From: a virus
Reading direction: 5' to 3' (one strand)
IMG/VR virus record: IMGVR_UViG_3300009449_000034
Coordinates: 1 to 23,468 of that record
Length of the DNA stretch: 23,468 nucleotides
The translations under genes were made by a program, and so were the position numbers. The stretch's first letter is position 1; every line of letters begins with the position of its first letter. This document shows positions 1 to 16,734 of the stretch, in pieces. The notes under the pieces are model-generated. The model was not told the DNA's origin. It saw nothing but the letters and a program-made list of their open reading frames with translations, and ran no database searches.

Positions 1-160
1 AGCGCGTGAGGGCGGCCCTAGGCGCACTAGGGTCGCCTAGTGCGATTATAGGGCGCCCTAGGCGCGCCCTAGGCGCCCTAGGGCCGCCCCGAGCGCGTGA
101 GGGCGGCCCTATTGACCTAGAGCGCCTAGCACGCGCCAATACGCGCCCTAAGTCAACACC

Positions 161-185
161 GCCGCCCTCATGGGCTGAGGGCGGC
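161..185. repeat. 10-bp hairpin inside the array
   Basis: GCCGCCCTCA and TGAGGGCGGC are exact reverse complements around the 5-nt loop TGGGC. The same arm and loop recur with one mismatch at 241-261, showing that the hairpin, not only the sequence, is repeated between units. Confidence 0.8.
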
Positions 186-253
186 CCTGTTGGCCTAGAG
201 CCGCCTAACATCGCCAATATGCGCTCTAAGTCAACACAACCGCCCTCATGGGC

Positions 254-325
254 TGAGGGGGCTTGTGGGGCACTTAGGGCGCCTAACATCGCCTAACATC
301 TCTAGGTGCCCTACAAGCCCCCTCA
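254..325. repeat. Long hairpin, about 24-bp stem
   Basis: Positions 254-277 pair with 302-325 without gaps; the only non-Watson-Crick pairs are two G-U type wobbles (267/312 and 274/305). The loop contains GCCTAACATC twice in direct tandem (281-290 and 291-300). This is the longest stem I found in the window. Both non-canonical pairs are wobbles that an RNA stem tolerates, which favours function as RNA over a purely DNA cruciform, although that is inference. Confidence 0.8.
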
Positions 326-415
326 CAGGAGGGCGGCCGTATTCGCCAAGAGAAGCGCTGTGTCGCGTCTGTAAGCGATCAGGGCCGCCCCGAGCATGAG
401 GGCGGCTGTAGCACG

Positions 416-441
416 TCGCCTGCGGGGGTCCCCGCAGGCGA
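416..441. repeat. Perfect 12-bp inverted repeat
   Basis: TCGCCTGCGGGG and CCCCGCAGGCGA are exact reverse complements separated by only GT. It sits at the boundary between the GC-rich array and the AT-rich stretch. The near-zero loop fits a protein-binding palindrome or cruciform at least as well as an RNA hairpin. Confidence 0.75.
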
Positions 442-3032: not shown

Positions 3033-3347
3033 ATGGCAGCTAGAAAAAAGAAAGAGCCACAGAAGACTAAGCACCCAGGTGTGACGAAGACTTCAGGCGG
3101 CAGGCTCAAGAAAGCCGGGGAGACGTTCAGCGGTTTCAACAAGCCCAAGCGTACTTCCGGGGGGTCCAAGAAGTTCGCCGTTCTTGCCAAGGAAGGCGAC
3201 AAGGTGAAAGTCGTACGGTTCGGAGACCCGAACATGACGATCAAGAAGTCCAACCCCGAACGTCGTAAATCGTTCCGGGCTCGCCACAAGTGTGACGAAA
3301 AGAAATCTAAGTTAACCGCTGGCTACTGGTCGTGCAAGAAGTGGTAA
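3033..3347 (+). CDS. Basic conserved phage protein
   Basis: A 104-aa, very basic protein (SD AAGGAC about 8 nt upstream). The N-terminal 45 residues are lysine-rich and flexible. The C-terminal half has the pattern VRFGDPNM near residue 61, SFRARHKC near 80 and YWSCKKW at the very end. I recognise this pattern from uncharacterised proteins of many environmental phages and some large viruses (DUF5872-like, from memory). The Cys, His and Trp residues at the end suggest a compact, possibly metal-binding, domain. The gene sits between another basic peptide and the terminase. The role is unknown; a nucleic-acid-binding or virion role is plausible. Confidence 0.7.
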   Translation: MAARKKKEPQKTKHPGVTKTSGGRLKKAGETFSGFNKPKRTSGGSKKFAVLAKEGDKVKVVRFGDPNMTIKKSNPERRKSFRARHKCDEKKSKLTAGYWSCKKW

Positions 3348-5332: not shown

Positions 5333-5396
5333 GGAGACCGATCGCGCTGCCCCTACTGCGGACAGCGCGTGACGTCTCACAACCTAGGAGAACCTC

Positions 5397-6890
5397 ATGA
5401 CCCTGAAGAATACCCATCCTGAGTATGACAAGGTCATCGAGGATTACGTCCAGATGGCTGACGTGTACGCAGGCCAGCGAGTCATTAAGGAAAAAGGCGT
5501 CAGGTATCTCCGCGCTACCGGAAGCCAAGTGATTGATGGTGCCCTCCAGGCACGCGAACCGGGTTACGGCGCATACCTCGCGTACAAAGACCGCGCAGTG
5601 TTCCCAGAGATCGTACAGCAGGCCGCTGGCACAATGACCGGCATCCTTTCAAAGGACCTGTGGACCATCGAACTACCGCCCGAGATGGAGCCGCTCCTTG
5701 ATAACGCGACCCGTCAAGGCGAGACCCTACACCAACTTCTACGTCGAATCCACGAAGCGCAACTTATCTACGGCCGCATGGGCCTCCTGATCGACACAGC
5801 GCCGGACCGAGAGCTTCCTTTCTTTGTCACGTACGACGCGCGAAGCATAATCAACTGGAGCGATCGGCGGGACTACGGCCACGGCTCCGACATGCTAGAC
5901 TTTGTTGTCACTGAAGAGATCGAGCAGATCAATGAAGGTTTTGGCAGCTACGCCTGGACGGAAGAGGAAGTGCATCGCGCACTCTTCCTGGACGAGAATG
6001 GTAACTACAGCACCCAGACTGAACAGGACCGGATCACGAGCGAAACCCTCACCCCAACCTTTCGCGGGCAGTCATTAGACTTTGTCCCGTTTACCTTTAT
6101 CAACGCTTCCGATCTGGAAGCAACTCCGGGAGTTATCCCGTTGCTGGGCAGCTCTAACGCAGCCCTTACCATCTATCAATCAGAAGCCGACTTTCGTCAG
6201 ACCTTGCACCACCTCGGACAAGAGACACTAATCATTACCGGGGTCGCCCCTGGCTCTGAACTAGACGATGATCAGCCCACGCGCATCGGCGCTGGCGCGA
6301 TCATCGAACTCCCCGAAGGTGCGGACGCTAAGTTCATCGGACTCTCAGGCGTAGGCCTGACCGAGCAACGAATGGCTCTGGAAGGCGACTACAAACGCGC
6401 GCAGTCCGAAGGCTCAAAACTCCTTGAGAACACCAGCTCCCAAGCGGAGTCCGGTGAGGCTCTCAAGGTTCGCGTTGCAGCCAAGACGACTACGCTTCGC
6501 TCAATTGCTCGCACCTCAGCCCTCGGGCTCGAAACCTCGCTGAAGCAGATGGCCCGCTGGATGGGTGCCGACGAGGCAGCCGTTCGAGTGATTCCGGTTA
6601 CGGACTTCACAGAGGACCGACTACCGCCGCAGGAGATCATGAACCTTATGGAAGCGAAGGCAGCGGGTCTCCCGATGTCCTACGCATCTATACATGAGTA
6701 TTTGGTCAAGCATGATGTCGCAGAGAAGCGATTTGATGATGAGATTGCGGAGATCGCAGCCGAGGGGAACGTCCTCGAAGCAATCCGCAAGTCTAGTCTC
6801 TCGGTCGCTTCGGAAGAGGCGCAAACAGCTCAGCAACAGGATAACAGTAACGAACAACCCCCGACTGACCAGCAGGACGTCGAGGAATAA
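5397..6890 (+). CDS. Portal protein (DUF4055 type)
   Basis: A 497-aa protein that forms the twelve-subunit ring at one head vertex, through which DNA enters and to which the tail attaches. The pattern from the N-terminus matches the DUF4055 portal family: HPEYDKVIEDY...DVYAGQ near the start, YLAYKDRAVFPEIVQQAAGTM near residues 60-80, and LIYGRMGLLIDT near 125. The C-terminal 40 residues are glutamine- and asparagine-rich and probably disordered. SD is TAGGAGA about 6 nt before the ATG. AGCGCGTGA lies 33 nt before the start. The order terminase-portal-scaffold-capsid supports the call. Confidence 0.88.
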   Translation: MTLKNTHPEYDKVIEDYVQMADVYAGQRVIKEKGVRYLRATGSQVIDGALQAREPGYGAYLAYKDRAVFPEIVQQAAGTMTGILSKDLWTIELPPEMEPLLDNATRQGETLHQLLRRIHEAQLIYGRMGLLIDTAPDRELPFFVTYDARSIINWSDRRDYGHGSDMLDFVVTEEIEQINEGFGSYAWTEEEVHRALFLDENGNYSTQTEQDRITSETLTPTFRGQSLDFVPFTFINASDLEATPGVIPLLGSSNAALTIYQSEADFRQTLHHLGQETLIITGVAPGSELDDDQPTRIGAGAIIELPEGADAKFIGLSGVGLTEQRMALEGDYKRAQSEGSKLLENTSSQAESGEALKVRVAAKTTTLRSIARTSALGLETSLKQMARWMGADEAAVRVIPVTDFTEDRLPPQEIMNLMEAKAAGLPMSYASIHEYLVKHDVAEKRFDDEIAEIAAEGNVLEAIRKSSLSVASEEAQTAQQQDNSNEQPPTDQQDVEE

Positions 6891-6931
6891 CCCACCGTAG
6901 GCCGAACTCTATGTTGAGTGAGGCCGACCCA

Positions 6932-6955
6932 AGCGCGTGACGCGCAAAGGATAAA
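6932..6955 (+). promoter_or_regulatory. Leader hairpin motif before the scaffold gene
   Basis: AGCGCGTGACGCGC can fold as GCGCG-TGA-CGCGC just upstream of the SD (AAAGGATA). The stretch starting ACCCAAGCGC is repeated almost exactly before the 10273 gene (10241-10263), with AGCGCATGACGCGC and AAGGATA. Related copies are at 5364 (portal) and 9475 (PhoH). Confidence 0.6.
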
Positions 6956-6960
6956 CCAAA

Positions 6961-7776
6961 ATGATTAAACGACGAATTGAATCACTCGAAGATGCGGGCG
7001 ACCTCGCAAGCTACTACGTTGAAACAGATGGCGGCTATGAGCTGCAAGTTGATGGCCCTGGATCGGAAGACGTATCCAAGCTCAAGCAAGCCCTAGCCGC
7101 AGAGCGCAGCGCACACAAGGAAACGAAGTCCCGTTACACTGGCATCGACCTCTCAGCTACAGAAATTCAGGAACTGCGCGACCGCGCGGACGACCTCAGC
7201 TTCCAGCTTGAGTCGGCACCCAAGGCAGCGGACCCGCAGGAACTGGAAGACCGCGCGGAACTTCTCGCCGCTCGCAAGACGCGAGAGCTTGACCGCGAAC
7301 TCCAGTCTCTCCGTGAGCAGAACAGCAGCTACACCAACGCCATCCAGATGCACGAAGCGGCACAGACTCAGCGCACCATGCGCGATGCTGCCCTCGACGC
7401 CATCTCTGGGGATAAGGGCGTCCAGCTTGTGGATTCTGCTCGTGAGGATCTCCTCCCCTTCGTTGAGCGCAGCTTCGAGCTGAACGACCTCGGCGAGATC
7501 GTCTCCAAGGATGGAGTCGGGCTTGAGCCGGGTCTTACAATTCGTGAATCGCTTACAGAAATGCAAGCCTCTGGACGGCGCAGCCACTGGTTCAAACAGT
7601 CGGCTGGCGCGGGTGCTGCGGGCAGCAAGTCGGGAGCCCCGGCTGGTGGCCCGAACCCCTTCCAGAAGGAAACTTTCAATATGACCGAGATCGGTGCTCT
7701 TGTTAAGGCCGATCCCGCGCGAGCCAAGGCTTTGGCGAAGGCCGCAGGCGAGAATCCGGCTAAGTTCGGAATCTGA
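6961..7776 (+). CDS. Head scaffold protein
   Basis: A 271-aa protein. The N-terminus has the typical start of phage scaffolds (LASYYVETDGGYELQVDG, then SKLKQALAAERSAHKETKSRY). The middle (about residues 40-130) is a charged helical coiled coil rich in E, R, A and L. Near residue 215 is a glycine/alanine-rich hinge, followed by a C-terminal helical segment (PNPFQKE...ALAKAAG) suitable for binding the coat protein. It lies between portal and capsid genes, the usual place. Its role is to direct capsid assembly and then leave. No protease motif is visible in it, so it probably exits or is removed without self-cleavage. Confidence 0.8.
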   Translation: MIKRRIESLEDAGDLASYYVETDGGYELQVDGPGSEDVSKLKQALAAERSAHKETKSRYTGIDLSATEIQELRDRADDLSFQLESAPKAADPQELEDRAELLAARKTRELDRELQSLREQNSSYTNAIQMHEAAQTQRTMRDAALDAISGDKGVQLVDSAREDLLPFVERSFELNDLGEIVSKDGVGLEPGLTIRESLTEMQASGRRSHWFKQSAGAGAAGSKSGAPAGGPNPFQKETFNMTEIGALVKADPARAKALAKAAGENPAKFGI

Positions 7777-7790
7777 TCGCAATAAGTTCT

Positions 7791-7809
7791 ACCGGGGGAG
7801 CCCCCTGGT
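7791..7809 (+). terminator. GC hairpin after the scaffold gene
   Basis: ACCGGGGG pairs with CCCCCTGGT across a 3-nt loop (one G-T pair). A weakly T-rich TTGATTTGTG follows. It probably reduces read-through or stabilises the upstream message rather than ending transcription completely. Confidence 0.4.
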
Positions 7810-7815
7810 TGATTT

Positions 7816-7866
7816 GTGTACTTGAAGTACACGCCACGCCATCTGAACAATTATTTGTACTATAGG
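7816..7866 (+). promoter_or_regulatory. Capsid-gene control region with 17-bp palindrome
   Basis: GTGTACTTGAAGTACAC (7816-7832) is a perfect inverted repeat of 8-bp arms around one G, a typical dimer-binding operator shape. It is followed by GTACTATAGG at 7857-7866, which resembles GTACTGTAGG of promoter copy 3. At the matching distance upstream the CACGCC here parallels GACGCC of copy 3, but the CTAAGTGA and GAGATAAT boxes are not conserved. This is a possible divergent promoter of the same family with its own operator. Confidence 0.4.
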
Positions 7867-7873
7867 CCAACAT

Positions 7874-7895
7874 GCCCAACAGTGGGCGTGGCCCA
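7874..7895 (+). promoter_or_regulatory. Two mutually exclusive hairpins in the capsid leader
   Basis: GCCCA (7874-7878), TGGGC (7883-7887) and GCCCA (7891-7895) lie in a row. The central TGGGC can pair perfectly with either flank, giving a loop of ACAG or of GTG. The second hairpin ends 24 nt before the capsid start codon. Confidence 0.45.
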
Positions 7896-7919
7896 ACTTC
7901 AAAAGGAACTTAAATCAAA

Positions 7920-8927
7920 ATGGCAACTACCCAAATCGCAGACGTGATCGTCCCGGATGTTTTCTCGGCGTACACGCAGCAACTCAGCACGGAGCTTAGC
8001 CTCCTTGTGCGGTCGGGCGTCATCGCTCGTAACCCCGCACTCGACGCTTTCTTGTCCGGTGGGGGCAATCTGATCCAGATGCCCGTCTGGGAAGACCTGC
8101 TGGACACTGAAGCCAACGTATCCGGCGACAGTGGCGCAGCAACACCTGAAAAGGCTGGGTCTCACAAAGAGATCGGCATTCGACACAACCGCAATCAGGC
8201 TTGGTCCGCTATGGACCTTGCGAGCCAGCTCGCTGGTTCTGACCCGATGGCGATGGTCGCTGGTCGAGTCGCTTCTTACTGGGTTCGACAAGAGCAGAAG
8301 ATGGTCAACGCGATCCTGGAGGGTCTTATCCTCGATGAGGCGGGCCTGATCAACGACATCGCTGCTGCTAATAACACGGACGCGGTTGCGGCTAACCTCG
8401 CAACGAGCAGCGACATCCTGGACACATTCCAGCTTCTCGGCGACCACAAGAGCGACGTTACGGCCATCGCGGTCCACTCGGTTGTTCACACGAACCTCCA
8501 GAAGGCGAACCTCATTGACTTCATCCCGGACAGCCGTGCAGACGTTGGGTTCGGAACCTACATGGGGCGCACGCTCCTCGTAGACGACGGACTGACCGTT
8601 GACAATAGTCGTCACAAGGCGGACACGACCACTGATCAGCCGATGTACACCTCGGTTGCGTTTGGTCCTGGTGCGTTCCAGTACGGCGTTGGCTCTCCCC
8701 GAGTCGGCACTGAAATCGAACGTAACGCCCTGAACGGCAACGGCGGCGGCGAAGAGATCCTCGTTAACCGACGTGAGTTCGTGCTTCACCCCAAGGGCTT
8801 CTCGGTTGCGACCAACGTCGCGGCTGGCGAATCCCCCACGAATGCGGAACTGAAGGTGAACACTGCGTACACGACGGTCGGACAGCGCAAGGACATCCCG
8901 CTGGCGATCCTTCGCTCGAACGGTTAA
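7920..8927 (+). CDS. Major capsid protein
   Basis: A 335-aa coat protein that builds the icosahedral shell, presumably with the HK97 fold. Typical features of this capsid family are a start with IADVIVPDVFSAY, a block SGGGNLIQMPVWEDL near residue 46, QAWSAMDLASQLAGSDPM near 93, a central helix containing VASYWVRQEQKMVNAILEGL, and FGTYMGRTLLVDDG near 211. There is no long N-terminal extension to be cleaved, consistent with the separate scaffold and no visible protease. SD AAAAGGAAC lies about 11 nt upstream. The leader carries a palindrome and alternate hairpins, in line with high and separately controlled expression. Confidence 0.88.
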   Translation: MATTQIADVIVPDVFSAYTQQLSTELSLLVRSGVIARNPALDAFLSGGGNLIQMPVWEDLLDTEANVSGDSGAATPEKAGSHKEIGIRHNRNQAWSAMDLASQLAGSDPMAMVAGRVASYWVRQEQKMVNAILEGLILDEAGLINDIAAANNTDAVAANLATSSDILDTFQLLGDHKSDVTAIAVHSVVHTNLQKANLIDFIPDSRADVGFGTYMGRTLLVDDGLTVDNSRHKADTTTDQPMYTSVAFGPGAFQYGVGSPRVGTEIERNALNGNGGGEEILVNRREFVLHPKGFSVATNVAAGESPTNAELKVNTAYTTVGQRKDIPLAILRSNG

Positions 8928-8939
8928 ATCACAACTGTC

Positions 8940-8970
8940 GGGGCCGGGGGGCAATACGCCCCCCGGCCCC
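8940..8970 (+). terminator. Very stable GC hairpin after the capsid gene
   Basis: GGGGCCGGGGGGC and GCCCCCCGGCCCC form a perfect 13-bp stem around AATAC. No T run follows and the next gene starts 16 nt later, so it is more likely a partial terminator or a 3' block that protects the capsid message. Confidence 0.6.
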
Positions 8971-8985
8971 CGAAAGGCCATATAT

Positions 8986-9405
8986 ATGCCTAAACTCAGT
9001 AGCAAGACTTCGCACGCACTCGGGGCGCAGAACGCACGACGACAGGAAGCCATGTCCGGCGATCTGGTTTTCACTGCGTCCCCAGCAACGCTCGGCACGT
9101 CGGAAGCCGTGGCCGACGCAGGAACAACTCGTACCGTTCAGGTTGCACTCAAGAACGCAGCGGGTGATGTCCACGAATGGTTCAATAAGGCCATCACGAC
9201 GGGCGTGGCAGTGTCCGACTCCACCACCCCAACTCCAACAATCCCATCCACTACCCTCACGTTTGTGAACGGTCTGGCTTCGGTTGTTGTCACCTACCCT
9301 GCTGGCGTGTATGGCGCCGGAGAAGCGGTCACTCTGACCGTCAACGCCGCCACCATTTTGGGCGAGACGGTTGCAGCAGTAACGAGCGTTGATACGCTCG
9401 TATAA
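8986..9405 (+). CDS. Ig-like head decoration or fibre protein
   Basis: A 139-aa protein. The first 25 residues are basic (MPKLSSKTSH...ARRQEAMSG) and could anchor it to the capsid. The rest is a beta-rich, threonine-, valine- and alanine-rich domain with the pattern of a bacterial Ig-like (filamin/BIg) module: TTRTVQVALKNAAGDVHEW, then LTFVNGLASVVVTYPAG, then GEAVTLTVNA. Such proteins placed directly after the capsid gene usually decorate the capsid and bind surface sugars. The gene ends in a small CGAGCG/CGCTCG hairpin. Confidence 0.65.
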   Translation: MPKLSSKTSHALGAQNARRQEAMSGDLVFTASPATLGTSEAVADAGTTRTVQVALKNAAGDVHEWFNKAITTGVAVSDSTTPTPTIPSTTLTFVNGLASVVVTYPAGVYGAGEAVTLTVNAATILGETVAAVTSVDTLV

Positions 9406-9416
9406 GCATAGAGACT

Positions 9417-9438
9417 GGAGGGGCCTCCGGGCCCCTCC
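9417..9438 (+). terminator. GC hairpin, partial terminator
   Basis: GGAGGGGC and GCCCCTCC form an 8-bp stem around CTCCGG, 11 nt after the decoration gene. TTGTCT follows, a poor T tract, so termination is probably partial. Confidence 0.5.
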
Positions 9439-9474
9439 TTGTCTGACGCTGCCCATGGGGGTCAGTGAACCACT

Positions 9475-9488
9475 AGCGCATGAAGCGC
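9475..9488 (+). promoter_or_regulatory. Leader hairpin motif before PhoH
   Basis: AGCGCATGAAGCGC, a GCGC/GCGC hairpin with loop ATGAA, lies 27 nt before the GTG start of the PhoH gene. It is the same motif as at 6932 and 10246. Confidence 0.5.
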
Positions 9489-9501
9489 CGAGAGGGAACC
9501 T

Positions 9502-10227
9502 GTGACCAAGAGAGAGAAGCGAAAAGCGAAGCGAGCCGTTGAATTAGTGCCCGAACTTGTAAAGACTCCGCCCGTGAAAAAGGTGGTTCTCAAGGCTCGA
9601 AACTTCAGGCAGCGGCGACTGCTTGCTGCGCTCAAGGACGACAGTCAGAAGATTATATTTGCTAGTGGTCCTGCCGGGACTGGTAAGACCTACGTGTCTA
9701 CCCTCTTCGCGGTACAGCAGCTTCAGGAGAAGAGCATCGAACGGCTCGTCATCACTCGCCCCGCAGTTAGTGTGGACGAGCAGCACGGCTTCTTACCCGG
9801 AACGATCGAAGATAAGATGGCCCCCTGGTTGGGCCCTATTTTAGACTGCCTCGGTGAGTATTACCGGCCTGATGAGATCAAGCAGCTCATCCAGGACAAG
9901 GTGATCGAGATTGCTCCGCTCGCATACATGCGTGGCCGGACTTTCAAGAATGCGATCATCATTTTGGACGAGAGTCAGAACACCACACCAAGCCAGATGC
10001 AGATGATTACGACTCGCATCGGCGAGGGTTCGCGTCTGTTTGTTACAGGCGACGGCGCCCAGTTCGACCGTGGCTACGAGAAGAACGGCTTAGCCGACAT
10101 CATCCGGCGTATCGGTCAAGCCCCTAGTGACTTGATCGCACACATTAAGTTCACTGAGGATGAAGTCGAGCGATCCGCTATCGTGGCCGAGATGGTTCGG
10201 CTCTACAACAACAACCCGGATGCCTGA
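9502..10227 (+). CDS. phoH: PhoH-like ATPase
   Basis: A 241-aa P-loop protein starting at GTG (SD GAGAGGG 5 nt upstream). Walker A is GPAGTGKT at residues 56-63, Walker B ILDESQN at 154-160, and the block LVITRPAVSVDEQHGFLPG near 82-100 is diagnostic of PhoH. The usual TGDPxQ sensor reads TGDGAQFD (182-189), with glycine for proline. The first 27 residues are strongly basic and extra to the core. PhoH proteins are ATPases with proposed RNA-related roles; their part in infection is unsettled. The gene is common in marine phages, but lying between capsid and tail genes is unusual and means it is expressed with the virion genes. Confidence 0.9.
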   Translation: MTKREKRKAKRAVELVPELVKTPPVKKVVLKARNFRQRRLLAALKDDSQKIIFASGPAGTGKTYVSTLFAVQQLQEKSIERLVITRPAVSVDEQHGFLPGTIEDKMAPWLGPILDCLGEYYRPDEIKQLIQDKVIEIAPLAYMRGRTFKNAIIILDESQNTTPSQMQMITTRIGEGSRLFVTGDGAQFDRGYEKNGLADIIRRIGQAPSDLIAHIKFTEDEVERSAIVAEMVRLYNNNPDA

Positions 10228-10245
10228 TGACAGGTAGCCAACCCA

Positions 10246-10263
10246 AGCGCATGACGCGCGGAA
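10246..10263 (+). promoter_or_regulatory. Leader hairpin motif before the 111-aa gene
   Basis: AGCGCATGACGCGC with downstream AAGGATA repeats the scaffold leader almost exactly (including the preceding ACCC) and lies 27 nt before the ATG. The stem is GCGC/GCGC around ATGAC. Confidence 0.6.
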
Positions 10264-10272
10264 GGATACAAC

Positions 10273-10608
10273 ATGAGCGAAAACAAGAAACCCCGCGCTT
10301 TCAAACCAAAGCGCGAGAACCCCATCCCCGGCTCGCCTGAAATTGACGGCAAGTTTCCCGGTGACGAGGGGTATGACTACGAAGCTGCGTATGCAGCTCT
10401 GACCGCAGAGGTCAAAGGGCACGAAGACGCGGCGGCGGCGGCGGTTGCCGTCCGGCACAAGCTCGGCGGCGTTCGCCCCGAACCCAAGACGCTCACCTCC
10501 ACGGAGCTTTGGCTGTCTCAGCAGGCGACACGCCGTATGATTCAGGCAGAGTCCGACGAAAAGAAGAACAAGATCGCGGCGGTGCTGCGCGAAATGAAAT
10601 TGATATGA
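10273..10608 (+). CDS. Unknown small protein in head module
   Basis: A 111-aa protein I do not recognise. The first 30 residues are basic and proline-rich (KKPRAFKPKRENPIPGSP). The middle is acidic with an alanine run (EDAAAAAVAV, around residue 58). The C-terminal third is a charged helix (QATRRMIQAESDEKKNKIAAVLREMKLI). SD AAGGA is 8 nt upstream. The leader motif it shares with the scaffold suggests common control with head assembly genes. It is the last gene before a strong terminator. It may be a minor head protein or assembly factor. Confidence 0.6.
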   Translation: MSENKKPRAFKPKRENPIPGSPEIDGKFPGDEGYDYEAAYAALTAEVKGHEDAAAAAVAVRHKLGGVRPEPKTLTSTELWLSQQATRRMIQAESDEKKNKIAAVLREMKLI

Positions 10609-12998: not shown

Positions 12999-13661
12999 AT
13001 GGCTGACGTGATTGTACCAGTATCCTCCGAAAGAGGAGTGGCCTCTGCGGTGCTCGAAGGCATGACCCGATACATGCCCAACGCTAATGCTTTTGACGGG
13101 TTCACGGCCTCCCCCGCACGTAACTTCCCCGACAACCCGCACACATGGGGTGGGGTCGCAGCGATAGGGTTTAGTTATATCTTATGGGGTCCGGCATATG
13201 GGCTCCCATCCTTTGCGAGCGCGGAAACCTTCTATGCTCAGATAAAGCCTGTTGTTGGGCAGACGTGGGCTGGGCGGGTTAAGGTCAGTGGCGGACCTTT
13301 TGGCTTTTTATCTTCGGGATCTGCTGCATGGAGCGAACCCAGTACCTCCTCAACAGGTGAATGGGGCTACACTAGACTAGACAAATCCGCCATGAACACA
13401 ACGGAGCTAGCTTCTGCTTTCGTATCAATAGCACCCATACCTGACTTCTCCTTCGGCGAGACGCTCCCCCTGATCTCTGGCATGTACGCCTACGACGAGT
13501 CCATCGAGGTCCTGACCATCAGGGTTCCCGAGACATACAGGTCCTCCTTGACCGGCACCCAAATTACTACCGCGACCCTGACAGGCACTAAGAGCACCAC
13601 CGCGACCCTGACCGGCACTAAGAGCACCACCGCGACCCTTACGGGTTCCGCAGGAGAATAA
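12999..13661 (+). CDS. Virion-type protein with C-terminal decapeptide repeats
   Basis: A 220-aa protein with SD AGGAG 6 nt before the ATG. Residues 1-180 are a beta-rich domain (many Gly, Ser, Trp, Phe). Residues 184-216 are tandem copies of the decapeptide TATLTGTKST, an extended threonine-rich tail coded by a 30-bp DNA repeat. Such low-complexity threonine-rich tails are common as linkers or spikes in virion proteins. The next gene, a BppU-like protein, begins 5 nt after the stop, and its SD is inside this gene's last codons. Confidence 0.6.
   Translation: MADVIVPVSSERGVASAVLEGMTRYMPNANAFDGFTASPARNFPDNPHTWGGVAAIGFSYILWGPAYGLPSFASAETFYAQIKPVVGQTWAGRVKVSGGPFGFLSSGSAAWSEPSTSSTGEWGYTRLDKSAMNTTELASAFVSIAPIPDFSFGETLPLISGMYAYDESIEVLTIRVPETYRSSLTGTQITTATLTGTKSTTATLTGTKSTTATLTGSAGE
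13546..13650 (+). repeat. 30-bp in-frame tandem repeat
   Basis: Units at 13569-13598 and 13599-13628 differ at one position (ACAGGCACT versus ACCGGCACT). A third, partial unit follows from 13629 and a diverged one precedes at about 13546. Near-identity of the two central copies indicates recent duplication. Confidence 0.85.
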
Positions 13662-16595: not shown

Positions 16596-16734
16596 GAACT
16601 TGGGGGCTGGGCTGCCAATACGGTCCAGCCTCTCCCTAGTTCATACCGAAGCTCCACTACACTTTAGGACCACATGTGTGGCCTAAGTTCGCCCGCACCA
16701 GCGGGCATAACCCCCTGAACAAAGGAACACATTC
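16596..16734 (+). promoter_or_regulatory. Intergenic region with three hairpins
   Basis: After the tube gene come GGCTGG/CCAGCC (16605-16630), AGG-CCAC/GTGG-CT around ATGT (16666-16684), and GCCCGC/GCGGGC around ACCA (16691-16706). None has a T run. The region separates the highly expressed tube protein from the chaperone and probably lowers or processes the downstream message. A CTAAGTTC at about 16683 is a poor relative of the promoter box. Confidence 0.5.

Follow-up and report, generated by a model that had tools for sequence, protein, structure and literature searches.

A nine-nucleotide motif, AGCGCRTGA, recurs shortly before several genes of the linear virus record IMGVR_UViG_3300009449_000034, whose 23,468 bases were all analysed and are called the window here, and the question is which part of these leaders is conserved, before which genes, and what it does there. 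Profile searches place the terminase large subunit, portal, scaffold, capsid and PhoH genes in the head module of the window. Judged from sequence comparison, the conserved unit is not the motif as such but a hairpin with an RUG(N) loop, or an ACGG loop in one clade, in which the stem sequence is free and which mostly comes in tandem. It is most likely that these hairpins act post-transcriptionally in the control of assembly genes, and those in the scaffold and capsid leaders probably let a putative protein adjust the amount of assembly proteins made.

The scaffold protein of the window is 31-37% identical to Queuovirinae scaffolds such as those of NP1, R7M and Nipunavirus relatives, and the scaffold leaders of such distant phages share the hairpin plan with no stem sequence in common. 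The two hairpins are UGAUCACA-AUGG-UGUGGUCA and GCCAC-AUGA-GUGGC in NP1, AAGUCC-AUGU-GGACUU and GCUGC-AUGU-GCAGC in MiCath, GCCCAGGA-AUGA-UCCUGGGC and CGGC-AUGA-GCCG in HTN2, GGCCC-AUGA-GGGCC and AGGGCGC-AUG-GCGCCUU in RDJL3, GCCACC-AAUGUC-GGUGGC and CAGGCG-AUGA-CGCCUG in Siara, and GGGCA-AUGU-UGCCC and UAUCC-AUGA-GGAUA in L007. An AUG-loop hairpin was found in 22 of 25 non-redundant scaffold leaders, compared with 2.6 +/- 1.5 (maximum 8) in dinucleotide-preserving shuffles, and AUG was the top loop triplet of all 64. With stems of at least 5 base pairs in a larger set, the count was 24/38 against 1.7 expected (maximum 6). A descriptive count at a stem of at least 4 base pairs, uncorrected for chance and covering 34 leaders from Queuovirinae plus related phages or contigs, gave an RUG or ACGG hairpin in 31 and two such hairpins in 20. 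The dominant loops were AUGA, AUG, AUGU, ACGG and AUGG, with GUGAN as a minority, and the last hairpin ended 2-32 nucleotides (median 17) 5' of the scaffold start. A covariance model (R1, nine copies) was built and not used, because the stem sequences differ between phages and the loop-triplet test is more direct. Vid5, one of the three exceptions among the 34, has the hairpins once its annotated scaffold start is set aside: that start lies within the first ACGG hairpin (positions 3336-3380 of L184), and the real one is probably downstream of the second. In four scaffolds that are more distant still, L077, L074, L071 and L075, no such hairpin is present.

The loop is also tied to one strand. 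It was found on the mRNA strand versus the opposite strand in 26 versus 3 cases for scaffold leaders, 19 versus 6 for capsid leaders and 6 versus 7 for portal leaders, and this bias favours an RNA element over a double-stranded DNA operator. Furthermore, scaffold and capsid sites have one loop class per genome, ACGG in 9g, K9PH25C2, Vid5 and Seurat and RUG elsewhere. In K9PH25C2, 9g and Vid5 the ACGG loop sits on both hairpins of the scaffold leader and on one or two of the capsid leader, with unrelated stems. Seurat, which was fetched as a held-out check, carries GGGGCUGGG-ACGG-CUCAGCCCC and GUCAC-ACGG-GUGAC in the scaffold leader and AGGGAC-ACGG-GUUCCU and UUCC-ACGG-GGAA in the capsid leader. 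Loops that change together at all sites of a genome are what would be expected of a single trans-acting reader.

A separate observation concerns the scaffold proteins themselves, which have an N-terminal extension of 20-30 residues in 9g (L182), K9PH25C2 (L171), Vid5 (L184) and pVco-14 (L178) and none in NP1 and RDJL3. Three of the four phages with the extended N-terminus are ACGG-loop phages.

In the window, the hairpins all belong to the RUG loop class, and those of the scaffold, PhoH and 111-amino-acid protein genes are arranged as follows, SL1 being the upstream and SL2 the downstream hairpin of a leader:

6906 to 6919, plus strand: SL1 of the scaffold leader, ACUC-UAUGUU-GAGU, within a longer GGCC/GGCC stem at 6900-6925
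6933 to 6945, plus strand: SL2 of the scaffold leader, GCGC-GUGAC-GCGC, immediately 5' of the Shine-Dalgarno sequence AAAGGAU
6947 to 6952, plus strand: Shine-Dalgarno region of the scaffold gene (start 6961), recognised from the sequence
6961 to 7776, plus strand: head scaffolding protein gene (PHROG 206, E 2.7e-28)
9443 to 9465, plus strand: SL1 of the PhoH leader, CUGAC-..CCC-AUGG-GGG..-GUCAG (CCC-AUGA-GGG in the relative L109)
9476 to 9488, plus strand: SL2 of the PhoH leader, GCGC-AUGAA-GCGC, the same in L109
10221 to 10236, plus strand: SL1 of the 111-amino-acid protein leader, UGCCUG-AUGA-CAGGUA, overlapping the PhoH stop codon at 10225-10227
10247 to 10259, plus strand: SL2 of the 111-amino-acid protein leader, GCGC-AUGAC-GCGC (GUGC-GUGAC-GCAC in L109)
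10273 to 10608, plus strand: gene of the 111-amino-acid protein, with homologues in L125, L007 and L008

All three leaders thus carry, ahead of SL2, an additional hairpin whose loop contains AUG; these hairpins, and the one before the gene in the tail assembly chaperone position (16663-16687), had been missed in the original prediction, which was made from the letters of the window. Close relatives show how such leaders vary. L109 is about 93% identical to the window DNA in this region, L006 is a relative with about 92% identity, and the scaffold proteins of L152 and L125 are about 76-77% identical to that of the window. In SL2 of the 111-amino-acid protein leader, a C-G pair of the window is a compensatory U-A pair in L109, and the first loop base changes from A to G. 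The scaffold SL2 reads CGCGC-GUGAC-GCGCA in L152 and CGCGC-AUGAU-GCGCG in L125, and SL1 keeps its AUG loop on an altered stem (UCC-AAUGUA-GGA in L152, GGC-AUGUU-GCC in L125). Across the window, L152 and L125, three pairs of the combined SL1 and SL2 structure of the scaffold leader have changed on both sides, and two pairs with compensatory change were found in group A4. The homologues of the 111-amino-acid protein in L125, L007 and L008 likewise have AUG-loop hairpins in their leaders; the count for this gene is 4/4 leaders. For the PhoH leader the comparison is with the near relative L109 alone.

Against this background the motif can be seen for what it is. AGCGCRTGA has six copies in the window, at 1, 92, 5364, 6932, 9475 and 10246, every one on the plus strand, compared with 0.45 expected, and none of 100 shuffles reached six. 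The copies from 5364 onwards are 33, 29, 27 and 27 nucleotides 5' of the starts at 5397, 6961, 9502 and 10273, so that the positions and the 27-33 nucleotide spacing in the original prediction were borne out, and the copies at 1 and 92 were indeed the only extras. The hairpins predicted for three copies (6932, 9475 and 10246) fold as GCGC-(GUGAC/AUGAA/AUGAC)-GCGC, each right in front of the Shine-Dalgarno sequence, and the copies before the scaffold and 111-amino-acid protein genes do share a longer block, ACCCAAGCGCRTGACGCGC..AAGGATA. The proposal that a common leader element for operator function, processing or stability exists stood insofar as a conserved hairpin is there; its unit is not the nine letters, and the gene set was wrong. 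In relatives it is the hairpin with an RUG loop that is kept, not the exact motif, which is not conserved in the L125 leaders; as the conserved unit it was rejected. The exact 17-mer was also rejected as a descriptor.

The portal gene does not fit with the other three genes of that proposal. The copy before it has no GCGC 3' arm and is judged to be outside the element:

5364 to 5372, plus strand: AGCGCGTGA copy before the portal gene, not an RUG-loop hairpin

It instead supplies the 3' side of a different hairpin, CGCGCUG...CAGCGCG, and it was not counted because L006 lacks the 33 nucleotides preceding the motif and has an insertion of 8 nucleotides behind it. Portal leaders in general were at chance for an AUG-loop hairpin (2/36 versus 1.8 expected, stem of at least 5 base pairs), and on both grounds the portal was rejected as a member of the set. 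The flanking insertions and deletions (window 5333-5396 compared with L006) make this leader an unusually mobile spacer. The copies at 1 and 92 have a different context again, on the loop side of hairpins of the form GGCCGCCC/GGGCGGCC. They are housed in a non-coding, GC-rich hairpin array at the left end of the window (1-430), which contains CCTAGGCGC palindromes and GCCGCCC..GGGCGGC stems, the loops of some containing CAUGGGCU or CGAGCGCGUGA.

According to these comparisons the gene set of the element includes, instead of the portal, the capsid gene of the relatives and the gene in the tail assembly chaperone position. At a stem of at least 5 base pairs, capsid leaders had an AUG loop in 17/32 cases against 1.5 expected (maximum 5) and a GUG loop in 9 against 1.1 (maximum 5). 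In NP1 the gene at 13059, in the tail assembly chaperone position, is preceded by the tandem GGGCGCG.GCA-AUGG-UGC.CGCGCCC and CACC-AUGA-GGUG. The corresponding places in the window are these:

7883 to 7895, plus strand: possible capsid leader hairpin, UGGGC-GUG-GCCCA, weak and in competition with a stronger CAUGCCC hairpin
16663 to 16687, plus strand: hairpin UUUAGG.CCAC-AUGU-GUGGCCUAAG in the leader of gene 16735, in the tail assembly chaperone position (leader z -4.1)

Two further observations touch on these leaders. The capsid leaders of MiCath, NP1, JG054, HD01, Siara and Salva have a long CATGCTA...TGGCATG hairpin 5' of the AUG-loop hairpins, a plan kept between genera. Hairpins with GUGAN loops were seen in the terL leaders of L007, L015, L018 and L025 and in the terS leader of NP1 (gene 1864); UGA stands in the loop in 5/11 terL leaders compared with 0.4 in shuffles, and these are perhaps more sites of the same reader.

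How could such hairpins work? We lean towards cis-acting mRNA hairpins whose loop is read by a putative trans-acting factor that tunes the expression of assembly genes. The stem would merely present the loop, and the loop, RUG(N) in most lineages and ACGG in one clade, would be the signal recognised by an RNA-binding factor. Bound at the scaffold leader, 2-32 nucleotides before the start, this factor would most likely hinder or tune the loading of the 30S subunit and so set the level of assembly proteins. The Shine-Dalgarno sequence overlaps the 3' arm of SL2 in L007, L008, L040, L012 and L025; as it lies in or against that arm in several phages, protein bound there would be in competition with the 30S subunit. 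In HTN2, L015, L065 and the window leader of the 111-amino-acid protein gene, SL1 and the stop codon of the preceding gene overlap, and translation of the preceding gene would therefore open SL1. We infer a protein as the reader, translation as the step acted on and repression as the direction, and the label of translational operator is plausible. The reader could be encoded by the phage or the host. A bolder version, which we hold only tentatively, is that one putative loop-reading phage protein runs a post-transcriptional assembly regulon of scaffold, capsid, tail chaperone and accessory genes, and that reader and loops co-evolve, with the entire operator set having gone from AUGN to ACGG on the branch that holds 9g, Seurat, K9PH25C2 and Vid5. 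Tailed phages need a correct ratio of scaffold to capsid protein, and a hairpin with a fixed loop, found clade-wide before these two genes, is a concrete RNA target in 9g and Seurat, whose host is standard laboratory Escherichia coli. The AUGN and ACGG loops form a natural two-code experiment and, if the idea is true, would yield an RNA-protein pair that is portable and add a family of the Rfam type.

Several observations weigh against reading by such a factor at the ribosome site. The Queuovirinae phages 033B, VpKK5 and pVco-14 were without scaffold hairpins at the thresholds used, in the window the PhoH leader does not exceed its shuffles in stability (z -0.65), and the switch to ACGG may have been one evolutionary event. 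All phages with ACGG loops here have enterobacterial hosts, and the reader could therefore be a host factor. Capsid hairpins lie 24-81 nucleotides (median 51.5) 5' of the start, and simple blocking of the ribosome site is therefore inadequate there; stability, processing or co-transcriptional action would also be conceivable for these leaders. Some of them, in 033B and VpKK5, are terminator-like. Since such stems with the same loop occur also in the capsid leader of L125, and tandem hairpins on nascent RNA recall nut/boxB- or put-like sites, the loop binder could modify RNA polymerase for readthrough into the scaffold and capsid genes. We regard this as improbable: recurrence at successive genes of an operon and hairpins abutting the scaffold Shine-Dalgarno sequence fit translation better, and the loops are not GNRA-like pentaloops of the boxB type. 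The SL2 copies of the window do not look like Rho-independent terminators either, being followed by AAAGGA, CGAGAGG and GGAAGGA with no U tract. Somewhat less unlikely is a role in mRNA stability or processing, where the hairpins would shield 5' ends or admit a specific nuclease and raise or balance scaffold and capsid mRNA. They stand between genes of one late operon, in several phages right beside the stop codon of the preceding gene, the downstream genes are expected to be highly expressed, and R7M has its own RNase III gene. However, a fixed RUG or ACGG loop, switching together at the sites of one genome, is not something a generic hairpin requires, and stems of 4-6 base pairs are too short for RNase III; the sequence evidence favours specific loop recognition over a generic stability hairpin.

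The loops could also be displayed start codons, pairing with the CAU anticodon of the initiator tRNA or opening mini open reading frames for coupled translation. The variation of A and G before UG mirrors start-codon use (AUG more than GUG, no clear excess of CUG), and the SL1 AUG in the window opens a frame of nine codons closed by the UGA of SL2. Yet such frames are not conserved (1-56 codons, ending on either side of the gene start or at it), and AUG is replaced by ACGG throughout one clade; display of start codons or upstream frames was thus judged very unlikely. A promoter in the DNA, of phage or N4-type hairpin kind, would agree with a short repeat containing a triloop-capable GCGCG-TGA-CGCGC palindrome 5' of several genes. 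It is still harder to accept, as stems of different phages share no sequence and the element lies against or over the Shine-Dalgarno sequence, where, judging from the positions, a transcription start plus ribosome site would not fit. Least credible is an artefact of chance or composition in GC-rich leaders. Exact 17-mer matches are common in unrelated viral contigs (42, most judged to be chance in GC-rich DNA), but the dinucleotide shuffles, the control leaders, the strand test and the held-out prediction for Seurat speak against it, and for scaffold leaders chance is already refuted.

Phage mRNA operator hairpins as a kind of thing are already known. In the gene 43 operator of T4/RB69, the closest described system, a hairpin about 40 nucleotides upstream has a loop, -UAAC- or the SELEX variant -CAAC-, that is read by the regulated protein (PMC3014915). 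The likeness to the present hairpins is in the position at the ribosome site some tens of nucleotides upstream, the specificity in loop bases and the diverged loops in related phages. For the scaffold gene, as in gp43-type operators, the hairpins are situated shortly 5' of the ribosome-binding site or overlap it; the capsid sites are further away. In contrast to that operator, with its one hairpin, one early gene and known protein reader, the present element mostly has two hairpins, stands before several late assembly genes, and combines a free stem sequence with a putative reader. In the single-stranded RNA phages MS2, Qbeta and PP7, the coat operators are short hairpins at the ribosome site whose loop bases are recognised by the capsid protein, with a bulged A, specific loops of 4-6 nucleotides and the replicase start enclosed. 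The hairpins described here are similarly short, loop-marked and at the ribosome site. They differ in having unbulged stems, loops of AUG(N), GUGAN or ACGG instead of ANYA, UAA or AUAUGG, and a start codon outside the hairpin. Lambdoid boxB, which stands next to boxA where operons start, has one GNRA-like pentaloop that a small phage protein reads. It shares with our hairpins the short stem, the loop as read-out and lineage-specific loop classes, whereas here tandem AUG or ACGG loops stand before individual late genes.

For the identity of the reader, P22 offers a precedent. Autoregulation of its scaffold has been known since the 1980s, and Wyckoff and Casjens (1985, cited in PMC5744158) reportedly described that the scaffold gene is controlled post-transcriptionally by unassembled scaffold protein. 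By analogy, the scaffold protein is the natural first candidate for the putative reader, and scaffold autoregulation would be one candidate explanation. P22 is not known to have a comparable family of RNA hairpins, and the present element differs in being shared by the capsid and other genes. Rfam release 15 gave no match reaching the gathering score, with sub-threshold hits only and none at the hairpins, and no description of these hairpins was found in the openly accessible literature searched, including papers on R7M, EC151 and MMDA13. A tandem, multi-gene, loop-coded hairpin family across a phage subfamily appears to be new.

Elsewhere in the window, an AT-rich non-coding stretch carries TTGACGCGGATGG twice in direct and once in inverted orientation (657-669, 788-800 and 898-910), an arrangement like that of iterons or operators. 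A short lysine-rich open reading frame of about 33 amino acids with KKPAKKKPAKKK repeats lies at 2892-2993, and 3' of it is the gene of a basic 104-amino-acid protein (3033-3347, PHROG 7595) that is kept in L125.

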